DNA of 5,725 nt. Source: Streptosporangiaceae bacterium. GTDB taxonomy: Bacteria; Actinomycetota; Actinomycetes; Streptosporangiales; Streptosporangiaceae. The DNA lies in the NCBI GenBank assembly GCA_030045295.1, contig JASIGD010000096.1, forward strand, positions 1 to 5,725, read 5' to 3'. Below are positions 1 to 5,725 of this stretch, one piece after another; the first letter of the stretch is position 1, and every line of letters starts with the position of its first letter. Made by a program: the position numbers and the translations under genes. Below the pieces are notes generated by a model. The model was not told where the DNA came from. It did no database searches and saw nothing but the letters and a program-made list of their open reading frames with translations.

Positions 1-434
1 TCGGTGATCGTGAGCACGGCCAGCGGCAGGCCCTCCTGGTCCTGAAGCACCAGATGGTCGGCGTCGTCCGGGACCGCGGCCGCGGGGACCTCCAGCGTCA
101 CCGGTACCGGCCGTGAAGTGCCGTCGGCCAGCATGCCTCCTTCGCCGACCGCGGCCACGTCGGCGGCGGTCATGAAGCCGCGCAGCGGGGCGAACGCCCC
201 GGACGTGAGCAGCTCGAGGTCGCCGAGCTGCATCTCGTCGAGCGTGCAGGTCGGCCAGTCCGCGAGCTGGCCGGGCAGTACTTGCCCGGCCGCCTGTGGC
301 GGCCGGGCGTGCCTGCCCGTGGCCGGGGCCGGCCTGACCGCCCGTGGCGGCGGGCCCGCCGGTGATCGATCAGTCAGCTCTGCCTCCGGACCCCGACTTC
401 TTTGTCCCCGCTGTACACCTGCTGAATTACCCAT
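1..434 (-). CDS. ATP-sulfurylase-type / adenylyl-sulfate kinase family protein, N-terminal part (runs off left edge)
   Basis: Reading leftwards, the translation contains LPGQLADWPT, then LGDLELLTSGAFAPLRGF and LADGTSRPVPVTLEV. These match the N-terminal PUA-like domain of ATP sulfurylases and of the actinobacterial proteins in which this domain is joined to APS kinase. The family activates sulfate to APS and, if the kinase is present, to PAPS in the cytosol. The nucleotidyl-transferase and kinase parts lie outside the window, so which activity it has cannot be decided. About 144 residues are visible. The only in-frame ATG upstream of the conserved part is at 434, which gives a roughly 59-residue Pro/Arg/Ala-rich leader without family similarity and has no Shine-Dalgarno sequence. 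An in-frame CTG at 377 lies five bases after a GGAGG (387-383), so the true start may be there. Divergent from the membrane-protein operon at 566. Family call is firm; start is uncertain. Confidence 0.83.
   Translation of the reverse strand, partial: MGNSAGVQRGQRSRGPEAELTDRSPAGPPPRAVRPAPATGRHARPPQAAGQVLPGQLADWPTCTLDEMQLGDLELLTSGAFAPLRGFMTAADVAAVGEGGMLADGTSRPVPVTLEVPAAAVPDDADHLVLQDQEGLPLAVLTIT
269..308. repeat. Two overlapping, mutually exclusive GC hairpins
   Basis: Positions 269-277 (GGCCGGGCA) pair perfectly with 283-291 around a 5-base loop. Positions 284-294 pair perfectly with 298-308 (GGCGGCCGGGC) around a 3-base loop. Both stems use 284-291, so they cannot form together. They lie in the stretch encoding the non-conserved leader of the sulfurylase-type gene, just before the first family-conserved residue. 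On the minus-strand transcript the 298-308/284-294 stem is made first. Neither is followed by a T run, so this is not a standard intrinsic terminator. Confidence 0.5.
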
Positions 435-565
435 ACCGTATGCCAGCGCAGGGCATAGTACACGTATGATCGGCCGTTCACTACGTCATGCCTCGACGCC
501 GGGCGCCCGTGGTACCGGAAGCTGCTCACTCCGCTGTACATTTACGTGACACTGGAGGGATGACC
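435..565. promoter_or_regulatory. Divergent intergenic control region
   Basis: This 131-bp stretch separates the minus-strand sulfurylase-type gene from the plus-strand membrane-protein operon and should hold both promoters. It is richer in A+T than its surroundings. Short inverted repeats cluster at its left end: CATAC-N1-GTATG at 432-442, TATGCC-N7-GGCATA at 439-457, and CATAG-N5-GTATG at 454-468. For the plus strand, TATGAT at 465-470 and TACATT at 537-542 resemble -10 boxes, but neither has a clear -35 box at the usual distance. On the minus strand TACTAT (complement of 456-461) is a possible -10. CGGGCGCCCG at 500-509 is a perfect palindrome. The promoter assignments are guesses; the repeats are plain in the sequence. 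Confidence 0.4.
554..558 (+). promoter_or_regulatory. Shine-Dalgarno GGAGG that decides the start of the small membrane protein
   Basis: GGAGG ends one base before the ATG at 560, too close for normal initiation, but seven bases before the in-frame GTG at 566. The GTG is therefore preferred as the start, shortening the protein by two residues. Confidence 0.7.
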
Positions 566-934
566 GTGGGATACCCAGGGACCCTGCCGCCAGCAGCGCA
601 ACGAGCCGAGGTGCTTGACGTCCTGGCGGCAGTGGCCGCCGTCGCGTTGCTCGCTGTGGTGCAGGTAGGCGCCTCCGGGCCGCTGCGCATCCTGCTGGTG
701 CTGGCATTTACCTTCTTCGTTCCCGGCCGTGCCATCATCACCAACTATCCGCGGATGGCACGCTGGTCGGACCTGGGCGCGTCCATGGTTGTCAGCCTTG
801 GTGTCCTGGCCTTCCTGGCCACCGTCACGCTGTGGGCTCACTTCTGGCACCCATTGGGCTTGTTCCAGGTTGAGGCCGTGCTGAGCCTGGCCGCGCTGGC
901 GGTCGGCATCGTCCGACGGCGAAGGAACTCATGA
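566..934 (+). CDS. Small four-helix membrane protein, DUF1616-like
   Basis: Predicted product of 122 residues with four hydrophobic stretches: about residues 16-37 (VLDVLAAVAAVALLAVV), 43-60 (RILLVLAFTFFVPGRAI), 72-93 (LGASMVVSLGVLAFLATVTLW) and 102-117 (VEAVLSLAALAVGIV), ending in a basic RRRRNS tail. The pattern 'PLRxLLVLxFxFFVPGxA' followed by 'DLGASMVVSLGV' resembles the N-terminal part of DUF1616-type membrane proteins, which occur beside surface-polysaccharide genes in actinobacteria; this comparison is from memory and no catalytic residues are recognisable. The TGA stop overlaps the ATG of the next gene as ATGA (931-934), indicating translational coupling and a shared membrane-linked role, perhaps as a partner subunit. 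The GTG start is chosen because of the spacing of the GGAGG at 554-558. It is certainly a coding gene; its function is unknown. Confidence 0.75.
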   Translation: MGYPGTLPPAAQRAEVLDVLAAVAAVALLAVVQVGASGPLRILLVLAFTFFVPGRAIITNYPRMARWSDLGASMVVSLGVLAFLATVTLWAHFWHPLGLFQVEAVLSLAALAVGIVRRRRNS

Positions 935-3867
935 CCGACACCGCGCCGGCCGGCCAGGGTGGTCGTCATTCCAAAAGGGGCCGTGACGATGGAGAGGTGC
1001 CTGCGCAGGCAGGTTCGCCCGATGACAGCTATTGGACGCTGAATCGAGTCGCGCATTACGCCGGATCCTCCCCCGGGCCAGCCGAGCCCACCGGGCGGGC
1101 GGTTACGTCGGCGCCGAGCCCGGGTGAGCAGACGACCACCTTGCCTCCCGTTGTCGCGCGCCGGACGGCTATCCATTTCTCGGACGTGGCCCTGCCGGTC
1201 AGCATCGTGCTGTGGGTAATCGGGGTCAGCCGGGCGAACACGACCACGCTCGGGCCTCTTGGGCTCGCGCCACAGCTGCCGGTCGTCTTCTACGCCGGGC
1301 TCGCTCTCCTCGTTCTGTCGGCTGTGGTCGAGCTCACCGTGGCGAATGCCTCACAGTGGCGGATGGGCCTGCACGCGATCGGGCTGGTGGTCATCCTCTA
1401 CGGGACACCCGCCTTGGTGTACCCGGAGGGCCGCTACTCCTGGCTCTACAAGACCATCGGGGTGGTCCAGTACGTTAATGCGCACGGCGCGCTGAATAGC
1501 ACCATCGATATCTACCAGAATTGGCCGGGTTTTTTTGCTCTCGCTGCCTGGTTCGGGAAAGTGGCGGGCGTGGGCAGTCCTCTCGCCTACGCGAAGTGGT
1601 CGCAGCTCGTATTCGAGCTCGCCGCCCTTCCCCTGCTGTACCTGATTTACGACGCGCTCTCGCTGACGTTCCGGCAGCGCTGGATGGCGCTCCTGCTGTA
1701 CCCCGCGGCCAACTGGATCGGCCAGGACTACTTCTCGCCTCAGGCGCTCGGTACGGTCCTCTCACTGGGCATCATGGCGCTGACGATGCACTGGCTTTAT
1801 ACGGGCAACCGGGCGCAGTTCGCGCCGCGGCGCCGGTGGCTGCGGAGGAGGCGGGCGACCGAGCCGCAACAGGCGGGCAAGCAGGCCGCAGTCTCCAAGC
1901 AGGAGGTCCGGGAGGCATACCAGGCAATTAGGTCCTATCAGGGACCGGCCGGGATCGACGGCGTCACGATCGCGGACTTCGAGCAGCGCTTGGCGCATAA
2001 CCTGCAGAGGGTCTGGGATCAGCTGCGTTCGGGGGAGTACCGCCCCGCTCCTGTCCGTGTCATGCCGGTACCCGGGGGAGGCCAGGCCGAGACCTGGGGC
2101 ATCCCTATTGTCCGCGACAGAATCGCCCGGGAGGTTGTAGGCCGGAGGCTTAGAACGGGCCTGCTGCAGATGCGCCGCGCTCACGCTGACAGCAACGCCC
2201 GCCTGCCCGCAGGCCAACAGCCTGGCAGCCGGATCATCATGATCGACACGCGGGCGGCTTCCGCCAACCTTCGGCCCGATCTGGTCCTTCAGGTCGTCGC
2301 GGCGACCACCGAGCAGAGGTGGGTTGTCGACTATGTGAGGCGGTGCTTGAACACGCCGGTTCAGCGACCCGACGGCTCGCTGGGCACCGGCAGCCTCAGC
2401 ACGCAAGCGGGATCTCCGCTCGCACAGGTACTGACTGACCTGGTCCTCTACTACGCACTTGATGCCTGGATGGGGCGTGACTTCCCGGACGTCAGGTTGA
2501 AGCACCCTCCCGATGCCATCGCGGTCCACTGCGCCAGCGAGCGGCAGGCGCGCTCGGTGAAGGAAGCTATCACGCGGCGCCTGGACGACGTCGGATTGGA
2601 GCTCAGCCCGCAGAGCATCCAGATCGTGCTCCCCCAGGACGGCGGCAGCTCGGCGCAGGACGGCGCGCCGTCCGGTCGCACCGGCCCGGCGGCCTCGGGG
2701 TATCGTCACCCGGCCGCGGAACCGCGTCGGCCGCGCGCCAGACCGTCACCGGATCTGCTCGTGCCTCCGGTGCGCCGCACCGCGTTTGTGGTTACCATCC
2801 TGCTCCTTTATTTCGTGCTGACCTTCACCCACGAGCTGTCGCCCTACATCGTCGCCGTCCAGTTGCTGGTCCTCGCTGCCGCGCGCCCGCTGCGGCCGCG
2901 GTGGCTGCCGCTGGCCATGCTCGCCATCGCGGTCGCGTACCTGCTGCCGCGTCTTTCGTACGTGAACAGCCACTTCGGCCTGCTGAGCTCACTGGGCAGC
3001 TTCTTCGGGAACGCGGCACCCCCGTCCGCCTCCTCCTATTCCGGGTTGAGCCTTCCGGCCAGTCAGGTGCTGATCCAGCACTGCGCAATCGCACTGTCGG
3101 TGACCATGTGGCTTCTCGCTCTGGTCGGCGCGTGGCGGCTCCGGCATTCAGGGCGGATCGTGCTCGCCCTAATTGTCCTGACCTACTCGCCCGTCCTGGT
3201 TCTGTTCGGGCAGTACGGCAACGAGGGAATCTTGCGGGTCTACCTGTTCTCTCTGCCGTGGGCCGCTGCCCTGGCCGCCGCGGCCGTCGAACCGGGGACC
3301 CTTTCCCGGAAAATGGTGCCGCGGCTGCGCGCGCCAGCCGGGGGCCTCGATCTGTCCTGGGTCAAGCCCGCCCTGCGCTGGCTGCGCGCCCCGGCGGCAC
3401 TGTGTTTGGTCCTCGGTCTGTTCTTGGTTGCCTTCGACGGGAATGACGCCTTCAACACGTTCCCGCAATCGGAGGTCACTGCACTGCTGGCCTTCCAGGA
3501 GCACGCCCGTGTGGGTCCTGTGTACCTGGCCGAGGACAATGCTCCCATTGAGGTTACGGACCGGTACTATCTTTTCACTTGGATCAGCATCTTCGGTTCC
3601 AAAAACGGGACGCCGGTGGTCAGCCAGGCGACACCTGACATCGCCGAGCTGATCGCCGAGAACTCCACCACCTACACGCAGGGCCAGGAACCTGCTTACG
3701 TGGTGATCGCCCCGAGCATGGCGCCGTATAACGCCGCGTACGCGCAGGCACCATCCGATAGCTTCCAGATCCTGCAGGAGTCTTTGGCGCGCTCGCCGAA
3801 GTGGAAGCTGATCGTGAACCAGGACGGTACGCTCGTTTACGAGCTTCCGCCGGGTGCGAAGTCCTAG
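931..3867 (+). CDS. Polytopic GT-C-like membrane protein with an embedded degenerate group II intron reverse transcriptase domain
   Basis: 978 residues. Order: Ser/Pro-rich cytosolic N-terminus (1-80); seven hydrophobic segments at about 85-100, 115-135, 146-163, 199-213, 226-242, 250-263 and 269-291; a large loop (293-614); seven more at about 616-633, 637-652, 657-673, 715-735, 742-760, 768-787 and 818-836; and a C-terminal soluble domain (837-978), probably extracytoplasmic. The stretch RYSWLYKTIGVVQYVNAHG, then IDIYQNWPGFFALAAW and NWIGQDYFSPQALG, together with the C-terminal 'WKLIVNQDGTLVYEL', recall actinobacterial GT-C-like proteins of polysaccharide loci that use lipid-linked sugars; no catalytic residue can be named. 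The loop is flanked by RRRWLRRRR (300-308) and RRPRAR (599-604), so it should be cytoplasmic. Residues 321-571 of the loop are reverse-transcriptase-like (separate entry). Start: ATG overlapping the upstream stop, with AAGGA at 922-926. Translationally coupled to the upstream small membrane protein. No stop or frameshift breaks the frame. Membrane-family call moderate; RT insertion call strong. Confidence 0.85.
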   Translation: MTDTAPAGQGGRHSKRGRDDGEVPAQAGSPDDSYWTLNRVAHYAGSSPGPAEPTGRAVTSAPSPGEQTTTLPPVVARRTAIHFSDVALPVSIVLWVIGVSRANTTTLGPLGLAPQLPVVFYAGLALLVLSAVVELTVANASQWRMGLHAIGLVVILYGTPALVYPEGRYSWLYKTIGVVQYVNAHGALNSTIDIYQNWPGFFALAAWFGKVAGVGSPLAYAKWSQLVFELAALPLLYLIYDALSLTFRQRWMALLLYPAANWIGQDYFSPQALGTVLSLGIMALTMHWLYTGNRAQFAPRRRWLRRRRATEPQQAGKQAAVSKQEVREAYQAIRSYQGPAGIDGVTIADFEQRLAHNLQRVWDQLRSGEYRPAPVRVMPVPGGGQAETWGIPIVRDRIAREVVGRRLRTGLLQMRRAHADSNARLPAGQQPGSRIIMIDTRAASANLRPDLVLQVVAATTEQRWVVDYVRRCLNTPVQRPDGSLGTGSLSTQAGSPLAQVLTDLVLYYALDAWMGRDFPDVRLKHPPDAIAVHCASERQARSVKEAITRRLDDVGLELSPQSIQIVLPQDGGSSAQDGAPSGRTGPAASGYRHPAAEPRRPRARPSPDLLVPPVRRTAFVVTILLLYFVLTFTHELSPYIVAVQLLVLAAARPLRPRWLPLAMLAIAVAYLLPRLSYVNSHFGLLSSLGSFFGNAAPPSASSYSGLSLPASQVLIQHCAIALSVTMWLLALVGAWRLRHSGRIVLALIVLTYSPVLVLFGQYGNEGILRVYLFSLPWAAALAAAAVEPGTLSRKMVPRLRAPAGGLDLSWVKPALRWLRAPAALCLVLGLFLVAFDGNDAFNTFPQSEVTALLAFQEHARVGPVYLAEDNAPIEVTDRYYLFTWISIFGSKNGTPVVSQATPDIAELIAENSTTYTQGQEPAYVVIAPSMAPYNAAYAQAPSDSFQILQESLARSPKWKLIVNQDGTLVYELPPGAKS
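1530..1536 (+). other. Seven-T run in a GC-rich coding region (possible slippage site)
   Basis: The codons GGT TTT TTT for Gly200-Phe201-Phe202 of the membrane protein make T-TTT-TTT, which fits the X-XXY-YYZ pattern of a -1 slippery heptamer and is also prone to polymerase slippage. TTC is the expected Phe codon in this genome. The -1 frame stays open to a TAG at 1929-1931. No stimulatory structure or function was established. Confidence 0.3.
1878..1903 (+). repeat. Direct repeat CAAGCAGG at the left boundary of the RT insertion
   Basis: CAAGCAGG occurs at 1878-1885 and again at 1896-1903, an 18-base period in frame, encoding KQ at residues 317-318 and 323-324. It sits where membrane-protein-like sequence gives way to RT-like sequence. 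It could be a local duplication or chance. Confidence 0.4.
1891..2643 (+). other. Embedded reverse transcriptase domain, group II intron type, catalytically degenerate
   Basis: This is residues 321-571 of the 978-residue membrane protein. Matches to group II intron-encoded RTs, in order: RT-0 'GPAGIDGVTIADFEQRL' (338-354) then 'NLQRVWDQLRSGEYRPAPVR' (357-376), corresponding to the usual 'nlyklwnrlssGsYfPppvr'; RT-1/2 'GIPIVRDRIAREVV' (390-403); motif A 'IIMIDTRAASANL' (435-447), keeping D439 but replacing the usual GFFD by AASA; motif B 'STQAGSPLAQVL' (490-501) in place of GTPQGGxxSPLL, followed by the conserved-looking 'LYYALDAWM' (506-514); motif C 'HPPDAI' (525-530) in place of YADD, so one Asp (D528) remains and the second is A529; RT-6 'GLELSPQSIQIV' (555-566). 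The usual 'GYRPGRSxHxA' segment before motif A is mostly missing. No RT-7, maturase or HNH domain follows. In-frame with membrane segments on both sides. Polymerase activity is unlikely; RNA binding or a structural role is possible. Confidence 0.87.
2635..2665 (+). repeat. Direct repeat CAGGACGGCG at the right boundary of the RT insertion
   Basis: CAGGACGGCG occurs at 2635-2644 and 2656-2665, a 21-base period in frame, encoding QDGGSSA then QDGAPSG. It lies just after the last RT-6 residues, at the start of a Gly/Ser/Pro/Arg-rich linker leading to the eighth membrane segment. Confidence 0.45.
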
Positions 3868-3904
3868 TGTCGGCGCAGCGCGCTGGTGGCCGCAGTGGGG
3901 CCTG

Positions 3905-4918
3905 CTACTCCTCGGGCGCGGCCGCGGGTCTGACCGGGGCGAGGCAACTGCCGACGAGGGGTGGCCGGCTCGGCTTGCGGCTGCGTCCCGCCAAGCGCGC
4001 GCGGCCGGTGAAGTACCCGGCCACGACGGTGGATAGGCCCGTGATAGCTGTGGTCATCCTCATGCCCGCGCCTGCGTCACCGGTCGCGAGGCCGCGCAGT
4101 TCACGCAGCAGCGCGGCCGGGATCACCACGCTGGTCTGACGCCGCTCGCGTTCCAAGCCCGCGGAGGAGCCGACCATCCGGACCACGTCGGCTTTGGAGA
4201 GTCCTTCGTGCCAGCAACGGCGCACGAAGTAGCCGAATCTGAGGCGTTCTGCGCTGACGTAGTGGTCGACGGCCGCGGCGGGAACGTAGAAGATGACCGA
4301 CCCCGGGCGGCTCGCGGTCAGCCGGATGGCCAATTCGGTCTCTTCGCAGCCCCGCGGGCTGGTGCCCACCCGTCCCACCGCATCGTCGAAGCCTCCGGCC
4401 TCGAGCGCCAGGCTGGTCCGCAGGCTCATGCTGGCGCCGATCGGGTTACGTACCACGCTGATTGTCTCCGGCAGTCCCCGGTAGCTGCAGCCGACGACCC
4501 AGTCGAACTCGGGCGGCAGCCAGCGTGGCCGGCGGCCCGGCCACCGCGGATGCACGCTGCCCCCTGTGGCTACGACGTCGGGGGACGAATACGGCCGTAC
4601 CAGGGATTCCAGCCAGCCTGGTCGCGCCTCCGCGTCATCGTCCAGGAATACGGTGACCGGTTGTGTGGCCGCCTTGAGGCCCGTGTTGCGCGCTCCCGAC
4701 AGGCCGGGGGTGCCGTCGCTCTCCAGGACCGTCACCCCGGACAGTTCGCGGCGCGCCCTTGCGGCAAGGCCGACGTTGTGGTCCACGACCAGCAGTACCT
4801 GCCGTGGCCGAAGGCTCTGGTGCAGCGCAGAGTCCAGCGCCGCGCGGGTGAGCATCCACCGCCTTTCGGTGTACGCGCAGACCACGACACTCACACCCAG
4901 ATCATCGACGGCGGCCAC
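3905..4918 (-). CDS. Family 2 glycosyltransferase (GT-A fold)
   Basis: From the GTG at 4918 the product has 337 residues. It opens with the first beta strand 'VSVVVCAYTERR' (about residues 8-19), has 'TPGLSGARNTGL' (70-81), the metal/nucleotide-sugar-binding 'FLDDDAEARPGW' (91-102; DDD is the DxD site), and 'GASMSLRTSLALEAGGFDD' with 'CEETELAIRL' (about 161-199) near the acceptor and catalytic-base region. These are hallmarks of GT2 inverting enzymes that transfer sugars from nucleotide donors at the cytoplasmic face. The C-terminal ~60 residues are basic and Pro/Ala-rich with weak hydrophobicity and no clear membrane helix. An alternative GTG start at 5002 adds 28 Arg-rich residues before the fold; neither start has a Shine-Dalgarno sequence, and the shorter form begins right at the fold and could be leaderless. 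Convergent with the RT-containing gene, 37 bases apart, with no convincing terminator between. Divergent from the GH16 gene. Acceptor unknown; a surface polysaccharide fits the context. Confidence 0.93.
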   Translation of the reverse strand: MAAVDDLGVSVVVCAYTERRWMLTRAALDSALHQSLRPRQVLLVVDHNVGLAARARRELSGVTVLESDGTPGLSGARNTGLKAATQPVTVFLDDDAEARPGWLESLVRPYSSPDVVATGGSVHPRWPGRRPRWLPPEFDWVVGCSYRGLPETISVVRNPIGASMSLRTSLALEAGGFDDAVGRVGTSPRGCEETELAIRLTASRPGSVIFYVPAAAVDHYVSAERLRFGYFVRRCWHEGLSKADVVRMVGSSAGLERERRQTSVVIPAALLRELRGLATGDAGAGMRMTTAITGLSTVVAGYFTGRARLAGRSRKPSRPPLVGSCLAPVRPAAAPEE

Positions 4919-5110
4919 CCGAGGCAGGGTAGCAGGGTTTCTCGGTTCCCGGACTACGCTCCGCGGTCTCCTGGCATCTCGGCTGCGGCCAGATCGGCAC
5001 ACCGGCGACGCGGCGGCGGCGCGCCCCGGCCGACGATAAAATCAGCGCAGGCGGGCCGGGCCCGGCGGCTCGCGCCAGCCACGACTGGGCAAGGTGACCT
5101 CATTTCGAAC
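4919..5110. promoter_or_regulatory. Divergent control region between GT2 and GH16 genes
   Basis: This stretch lies between the GT2 gene (leftward) and the GH16 gene (rightward). The only A/T-rich patch is GATAAAAT at 5035-5042. On the plus strand TAAAAT (5037-5042) matches a -10 box at five of six positions, with no consensus -35 upstream. On the minus strand the same patch gives TATCGT, also of -10 type. One patch could thus serve both directions. AAGGTGA at 5091-5097 is the only ribosome-binding-like sequence before the ATG at 5111, but at 13 bases it is further away than usual. If GT2 starts at 5002 instead, the region shrinks to 5003-5110. Confidence 0.35.
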
Positions 5111-5725
5111 ATGACTCCCCCCGGGCCGCCTCCGGGCACGCGCGAACAACCACGGCCCGGACGCTCTAAGGCGTCAAGGTTGGTGGGCAGACGGTCATGG
5201 CTGATAGTCGCCTCTGTGGTGATCATCGCCGCGGCGGCAACTGTCACGTGGGCACTCCAGCAACCGCACACCAGCCAGGCCGGTCGTTCGCCGGCGCCGA
5301 GCTCGGGGCCGCCCAGCAATGTGCCCGGGTGGCGGCTGACCTACAGCACGGACTTCCCGGGTGACAGCCTGCCGTCGGGGTGGGGCGCGTACAGCGGCGA
5401 GCCGGGCGGTGACCCGGACGGCAACTGGGACCCGTCCAACGTGTCGGTCAGCGGCGGCGCGCTGCACCTGCTGGCGACGCCGTCGGCCCAGGGCGGCGTG
5501 ATGTTCTACGGGAACCCGCAGACTTACGGCATGTACCTGGTCCGGATGAAGGGCGACTACGAGCCGGGGCTGGCCATCAACAACCTGGCCATCTTGTGGC
5601 CGGCCCAGCAGGGCGTCTGGCCGCCCGAGGTGGATTTCTTCGAGGATGAGGGCGGCACCCGGCAGGACTTTTTCGCCAGCCTGCACGCGGGCCCGGACGG
5701 GAACTACAGCTGCTGCGTCATGAAC
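5111..5725 (+). CDS. Membrane-anchored or secreted GH16 glycan hydrolase/transglycosylase, N-terminal part (runs off right edge)
   Basis: 205 residues are visible. The N-terminus is Pro-rich, then basic (RLVGRR, 23-28), then hydrophobic (LIVASVVIIAAAATVTWAL, 31-49): a signal peptide or signal anchor with no obvious AxA cleavage site. A Ser/Pro linker (53-72) precedes the catalytic domain, which begins near 'WRLTYSTDFPGDSLPSGWGAY'-like sequence at 74-94 and carries 'WPPEVDFFEDEGG' (170-182). EVDFFE is the GH16 ExDxxE signature: E173 nucleophile, D175, E178 acid/base. GH16 enzymes cut or rearrange beta-glucans, galactans and related polymers by a retaining mechanism; similar enzymes occur in exopolysaccharide loci, where they trim the secreted chain. 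The substrate cannot be read from this part. The ATG at 5111 is the only sensible start upstream of the basic region; its AAGGTGA is 13 bases away. Divergent from the GT2 gene, suggesting a shared locus. Confidence 0.92.
   Translation, partial: MTPPGPPPGTREQPRPGRSKASRLVGRRSWLIVASVVIIAAAATVTWALQQPHTSQAGRSPAPSSGPPSNVPGWRLTYSTDFPGDSLPSGWGAYSGEPGGDPDGNWDPSNVSVSGGALHLLATPSAQGGVMFYGNPQTYGMYLVRMKGDYEPGLAINNLAILWPAQQGVWPPEVDFFEDEGGTRQDFFASLHAGPDGNYSCCVMN

Follow-up and report, generated by a model that had tools for sequence, protein, structure and literature searches.

Reverse transcriptases (RTs) are familiar as enzymes that act in mobile elements, in repair and in defence, and the spliceosomal protein Prp8 is a domesticated RT; bacteria have no spliceosome. 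Here we describe a stretch of 5,725 nucleotides from a Streptosporangiaceae bacterium (assembly GCA_030045295.1, contig JASIGD010000096.1, positions 1 to 5,725; hereafter the window), in which a single gene encodes a predicted GT-C-type membrane glycosyltransferase with a group II intron-type RT domain inserted in a predicted cytoplasmic loop. The inserted domain has lost key catalytic residues, and it may now serve the membrane protein as a docking part.

Among described systems, the insert is closest to the group II intron RT/maturases (TIGR04416; GsI-IIC RT, 6ar3/7k9y; free proteins such as P0122 and P0169). It differs from them in having no YxDD, in missing most of RT2, in having neither a thumb/X domain nor an intron RNA match, and in sitting inside a membrane protein. 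With Prp8 it shares an RT-derived, catalytically dead domain kept in a larger protein, a likeness in manner of working and not in membership: Prp8 is a eukaryotic protein of an RNA core, whereas the present domain has lost its thumb/X part and resides in a bacterial protein predicted to be a glycosyltransferase. Two bacterial cases involve domesticated or fused RTs. G2L4 RT (9d4s; PMC12337344) is described as a group II-like RT domesticated for host use with the Asp pair of the polymerase site kept (YIDD), and a survey of bacterial RTs (PMC4244168) describes RT-Cas1 fusions, in which group II-like RTs are fused for host use, with DD conserved in CRISPR-associated RTs. Unlike both as there described, the inserted RT does not retain the Asp pair, and its partner is a predicted membrane enzyme.

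On the host side, the nearest kin are GT-C structures, namely chain A of the yeast oligosaccharyltransferase (OST; 8agc), which we take to be STT3, together with AglB (3waj), ArnT (5f15), AftA (8if8) and PglB (3rce). We know of no RT domain in any of these proteins. The locus also recalls the three-component extracytoplasmic glycosylation systems, which as described (PMC11127046) comprise a polyprenyl sugar synthase, a flippase and a GT-C enzyme: here, too, a predicted GT-C protein, a GT2 glycosyltransferase and a small, apparently hydrophobic protein share one locus, but the small protein has no flippase family match and the GT2 is at most a candidate for making a polyprenyl donor. Both halves of the fused protein are of known kinds; their joining, and the presence of a catalytically dead RT as one module of a membrane enzyme in bacteria, appear to be new. 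Searches of the open-access literature listed no paper that describes an RT within a glycosyltransferase, and the main text of the RT survey (PMC4244168) contains 0 occurrences of 'glycosyl' and 0 of 'membrane'. If the docking role is true, the RT fold itself would be reusable in bacteria as a plain binding part, as in the spliceosome. Since the insert occurs in full, trimmed and deleted form among the relatives, it becomes possible to test directly how domestication proceeded and whether a dead RT domain still does anything useful.

The fused gene and its inserted domain

An earlier note on this DNA had described one uninterrupted frame running from a membrane part through an RT-like part into a second membrane part, and this was borne out: the fused gene (Table 1) is a single open frame, continuous across both junctions of the RT segment. 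The note had placed the insert at 1831-2745; the whole inserted loop proved slightly wider (residues 291-612, window 1801-2766), and the RT core itself covers residues 318-571 or thereabouts (window 1882-2643). Its count of seven plus seven membrane segments was one too high on the upstream side, since structure model helices and loop charges place six before the insert and seven after it, thirteen in total, with the C-terminal domain predicted outside; for the insert loop the prediction is a cytoplasmic position, in agreement with the note. In 29 aligned relatives that lack the RT domain, among them five with the scars described below, the corresponding loop is 14-59 residues long (mean 31). 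A GT-C membrane fold with a large first external loop is present in the predicted host structure, and D193 in this loop, a candidate for the acidic catalytic residue, is listed as invariant in an 80-row alignment, so that the host enzyme may well be active.

The RT motifs lie where they had been placed, with RT-0 (GIDGVTI) at residues 341-347, followed by RT-1 (GIPIVRDRI), the helix after motif B (LYYALDAWM) and RT-6 (GLELSP). Profile search likewise yielded an RT match, with TIGR04416 matching the whole protein at E 6e-31 (107.8 bits, below the model's curated cut-off of 300), and four distinct solved RT sequences matched at E 7e-11 to 7e-10; Pfam RVT_1 alone was weak for the insert (E 0.016, 15.3 bits against a cut-off of 29.6). 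Judged by TIGR04416 and the solved RT sequences, the resemblance of the insert to RTs is beyond chance. The fold predicted for the insert is of the fingers-palm type, matching group II RTs as had been expected, and the RT core is predicted to fold by itself (predicted local distance difference test, pLDDT, 86.1; predicted template modelling score, pTM, 0.83). The RT sequence blocks and the predicted fingers-palm fold of a group II intron RT/maturase are both present, and intron-type RTs are the closest free relatives of the insert.

Catalytic residues were compared in an alignment of 51 inserts (P0036 left out) and 38 free intron RTs. All three catalytic Asp are present in 38/38 free RTs and in 0/51 inserts: the second Asp of YxDD is retained in 0/51, the first in 33/51 and the motif A Asp in 38/51. 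The Gln of the motif B PQG survives in a single insert (1/51), and in the RT2 motif YGYRPGRS columns 3-8 are gapped in at least 48 of the 51, with the last four columns filled in none. Altogether, 57 positions conserved in free RTs are lost in the inserts within the compared span (68 columns minus 11 beyond the insert cut). In the Pfam search, taken up to E 1, the window protein showed no match to the thumb/X (maturase) domain PF08388, which is listed for 40 of 47 matches in the search for free RT relatives, and after the RT core only the 41 residues of linker B (572-612) remain before the next membrane helix, leaving no room for a thumb or maturase domain. A possible RT7 remnant in P0056 (score 70, 0/200 shuffles as high) is suggestive only, because the tested stretch takes in RT6. 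A fused form with an intact active site was found neither among the 120 listed of 578 matches nor with the P0056 insert as query, which gave 12 matches, three of them known fused proteins (P0056, P0047 and P0039) and nine RT-matching proteins of 459-533 residues, seven with a maturase domain. The catalytic residues of the inserted RT, as far as sequence can tell, are lost, and with the triad broken in 51/51 inserts an active RT is ruled out on the same grounds.

Table 1. Features of the window, with the fused gene and its parts first and the neighbouring reading frames last.
Feature	Residues	Window position	Strand
Fused gene, 978 amino acids: membrane glycosyltransferase, predicted GT-C, interrupted by a group II intron-type RT domain		931..3867	+
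Six predicted membrane helices and first large external loop (residues 164-216, window 1420-1578)	83-288	1177..1794	+
Linker A, very basic (RRRWLRRRR), low model confidence	294-317	1810..1881	+
RT core, N-terminal extension/RT0 to RT6 (fingers and palm)	318-571	1882..2643	+
Site at which inserts lack most of the RT2 finger motif (YGYRPGRS) found in free RTs	421-422	2191..2196	+
Motif A Asp, still Asp in the window protein	D439	2245..2247	+
Motif C: PPDA in place of the YxDD of active group II RTs (codons read)	526-529	2506..2517	+
Linker B, fast-diverging, mostly low model confidence	572-612	2644..2766	+
Seven predicted membrane helices	613-836	2767..3438	+
Predicted extracytoplasmic C-terminal domain	837-978	3439..3864	+
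Small protein, open reading frame (ORF), hydrophobic by eye		488..934	+
GT2 glycosyltransferase		3905..5002	-
N-terminal part of sulfate adenylyltransferase (PUA_2), cut by window edge		3-434	-
ORF running off the window end; part resembles stretches of loci L058 and L060		4208-5725	+

Distribution, probable capture and loss of the insert

To describe the distribution, 121 proteins were examined, namely the window protein and 120 listed of 578 matches. Relatives with and without the insert were both found: in 52 of the 121 the loop holds an insert exceeding 300 residues, P0061 ends within the insert, and the rest have a short loop or a remnant. Fully aligned carriers are 47-99% identical to the window protein. 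The fused gene was also read at the DNA level in a second genome (G036, contig C189, locus L053/L057), which is assigned to the family of Spongiactinospora gelatinilytica (genome of locus L001; Streptosporangiaceae, NCBI taxonomy). At E up to 1e-40, the host part was present in 4 of 345 genomes of the order of G036, with the RT in G036 only and three without it. A class-level search likewise found the host part in 4 of 394 genomes, G036 and three more, and in these three additional genomes the host halves lie 42-207 bases apart, with no room for an RT. A genome scan with the insert as query gave 44 loci, and since a re-check within the DNA examined found the RT in 44/44 and the host part in 0/44, these are free RTs.

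Placed in one tree with 42 free RTs, the 23 inserts used out of the 52 formed one group. When proteins in host-only trees were labelled as having an RT, a remnant or neither, the labels required 5 changes, compared with shuffled means of 42 (118 rows) and 25 (65 rows); the 118-row tree left out P0036, P0061, P0063, P0066 and P0092, and the second tree used 65 of the 118 rows. P0060, P0062 and P0064 fell outside the main RT clade in both free host trees. A tree holding all RT and scar rows in one clade had a log-likelihood 7.7 above that of the free quick tree, with p-AU (approximately unbiased test) 0.645 for 65 rows, so that a single capture is not rejected; the group tested had been chosen with the first tree already in view, and the result is therefore not proof of a single capture.

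Loss of the RT is nested among RT carriers in at least three lineages. In one, P0051, P0053, P0055, P0058 and P0059 have a loop of 97-161 residues with a remnant of the N-terminal RT part. In another, P0030, P0033, P0042, P0045 and P0050 retain the insert tail only, comprising the final piece of the last RT strand and the beginning of linker B, as seen when P0030 (VQVVPGQDDGSGAENGK) is set against P0012 (IQVVPGQDDGSGAESGK). In the last, P0065 retains AIGQRMEEAG, a ten-residue stretch that is found unchanged in the RT of its sister P0056 (sister support 100 in both host trees), although the whole loop of P0065 scores only z 1.9 in the 67-row scar test given below. A scar test against the RT core alone (68 rows) gave z 11-22 for P0066, P0053, P0055, P0063, P0051 and P0058, and z 4.6 for P0059 and 4.3 for P0092, little above the best unclaimed row (3.9). 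The five tail-scar rows reached z up to 3.2 against the RT core and z 9-15 against the insert tail (residues 550-580), where the next row had 2.1. An earlier scar test (67 rows), with the start of linker B included in the reference, placed 12 rows at z of at least 6.2. P0036 and P0061 were left out of both tests and P0092 out of the 67-row test.

The remnant proteins P0051, P0053, P0055, P0058 and P0059 also have a large Ala-rich extension, bringing the next large cytoplasmic loop (window residues 787-810) to 172-294 residues. This loop has 34-42 residues in RT rows (27) and 30-66 in RT-less rows (16); it was measurable in 27 RT, five of eight remnant and 16 RT-less rows, the others misfitting the pattern used. 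The five proteins with the extension form one clade and so represent one event, in which the extension may substitute for the RT domain. Separately, the RT N-ends of P0036, P0162 and P0164 look frameshifted, compensated or truncated, as decaying copies or sequencing errors would.

Possible roles of the inserted domain

Distances between RT domains correlated with those between host membrane parts at r 0.94, with 0/999 permutations as high (51 rows), showing that insert and host part have been inherited together. Relative to the membrane core, the rate in the same 51 rows was about 2.6 times for the RT core and 2.1 times for the C-terminal domain, and in the window protein's clade of 24 the ratios were 2.05 and 2.58, respectively. 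In two sets of pairs, whose first membrane part averaged 0.53 and 0.68 identity, respectively, identity was 0.43 and 0.42 in the RT core, 0.52 and 0.50 in the C-terminal domain, 0.24 and 0.32 in linker A, and 0.14 and 0.11 in linker B. Invariant positions within the clade of 24 accounted for 126/213 (59%) and 120/224 (54%) of the two membrane parts and 49/139 (35%) of the C-terminal domain. Across the inserts other than P0036, 37 positions are conserved as in free RTs, 18 of them in residues 326-407 (N-terminal extension/RT0/RT1), and three Arg (376, 405 and 448) are newly conserved. The mean net charge of the RT core is +3.4 in inserts and +1.8 in free RTs, and that of linker A is +6.7.

With a probability of roughly one half, we favour the explanation that the inactivated RT in the cytoplasmic loop of the predicted GT-C enzyme is a docking platform for cytoplasmic glycan-assembly partners and not an enzyme. 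The docking role itself we infer: many relatives keep the RT domain, and a part likely captured from a selfish element would thus now serve for docking. An intron ORF of actinobacterial origin would have been captured once, in an ancestor, a history that the tree test does not reject; loss of the intron flanks, the thumb and the X domain and of polymerase activity would have followed. The fingers-palm scaffold would have been retained as a surface to which GT2 enzymes, or further proteins of the same locus, bind, with later trimming or deletion of the domain in some lineages. The earlier note's proposal that part of an intron ORF was captured in a variable loop is supported, and fits the profile, fold, relatives, contigs and intron-RNA results as well as the predicted GT-C-like host; as roles the note had suggested RNA binding, recruitment of a partner or an inert spacer. 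A wider account, which we hold only tentatively, is that of a Prp8-like path in bacteria, in which an intron RT was captured once, lost its catalytic function and became a regulatory module that docks RNA or protein during exopolysaccharide assembly; living relatives would mark stages from the full domain to a scar, and one lineage would have swapped it for the long Ala-rich extension in the next large cytoplasmic loop.

Several observations count against a docking role. No binding partner is known, and the loss or trimming of the RT domain in at least three lineages means that it is dispensable there. Outside the clade of 24, the RT of the other 27 rows is clearly faster than the C-terminal domain (2.78 and 2.10 times the membrane rate), and within the clade only 58/254 RT positions (23%) are invariant. 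The window protein (P0001) and its 99% identical neighbour P0002 differ at 10 positions, of which seven fall in the RT core, two in linker B and one in the host, and P0036 and P0164 have scrambled RT N-ends resembling compensated frameshifts. Net charge does not separate inserts from free RTs and so favours neither RNA nor protein binding.

The domain could instead be a tolerated passenger, a functionless RT fragment in a long and harmless cytoplasmic loop that decays slowly and is occasionally deleted in frame. The active site broken in all 51 inserts, the remnants and scars in several lineages, the scrambled N-ends and the placing of 9 of the 10 P0001-P0002 differences in the RT core or linker B all suit such a passenger, which we nevertheless consider rather unlikely, given the 37 free-RT positions kept, the confidently predicted fold, and an RT core rate not far from that of the protein's own soluble domain while linker B has diverged almost fully. 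Less probable still is an RNA-binding membrane anchor, in which the dead RT would keep part of the nucleic-acid groove and tether RNA, for example the messenger RNA of its own locus, to the glycan machinery. The kept positions in residues 326-407, the strongly basic linker A, the three new Arg and the precedent of Prp8 as a dead RT on RNA point this way; however, the RT2 finger motif and the thumb both help hold nucleic acid in active RTs, and here the motif is missing and no thumb follows, while the core net charge is not clearly above that of free RTs.

Two further readings were considered. A live retroelement, be it a group II intron that splices out or an RT still making complementary DNA, would agree with intron-type RTs being the closest free relatives, yet the catalytic triad is broken and the frame runs through both junctions, and a search with Rfam up to E 1 matched group II intron RNA in neither the window nor the G036 gene. 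The same search, applied as a positive control to the free RT of locus L002 (Phytohabitans), found both intron ends, a D1-D4 family (E 5e-14) and Intron_gpII (E 8e-6), one on either side; in the window Rfam listed two weak unrelated matches at 273-323. With the control working, the absence of intron RNA matches rules out splicing at the level of sequence, and we regard a live retroelement as extremely improbable. For a chimeric assembly that joined an intron RT to the gene of a membrane protein, a possibility raised in the earlier note, no supporting point was found. The insert occurs at the same site in the 52 carriers, from several sources and on many independent contigs, which reach 296 kilobases (P0032), and in the one genome locus (G036) read at the DNA level; a chimera is thereby excluded, and its probability is negligible.

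Neighbouring genes

At 931-934 the sequence ATGA holds both the start codon of the fused gene and the stop codon of the small-protein ORF, and the translation of the two is therefore probably coupled. The small protein gave no match to a flippase family in Pfam. In G036, a homologue of the small protein (60% identical) lies just upstream of the fused gene, and the surroundings include a GH16-like protein and five GT2s, one of which is the nearby homologue of the window's GT2 (68%). In the RT-less genomes G039 and G139, homologues of the small protein and of the host lie near each other, and G139 also has a GT2 at 46%. The ORF at 4208-5725 we label only tentatively as GH16-like; Pfam gave no match for 5003-5725 in the frame from 5003. 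In G001 and G004, which were reached via intron RT loci, a distant relative of the host stands in one frame with an N-terminal part that to the eye resembles GT2 (L052 and L050), a hint that GT2 and GT-C enzymes cooperate.

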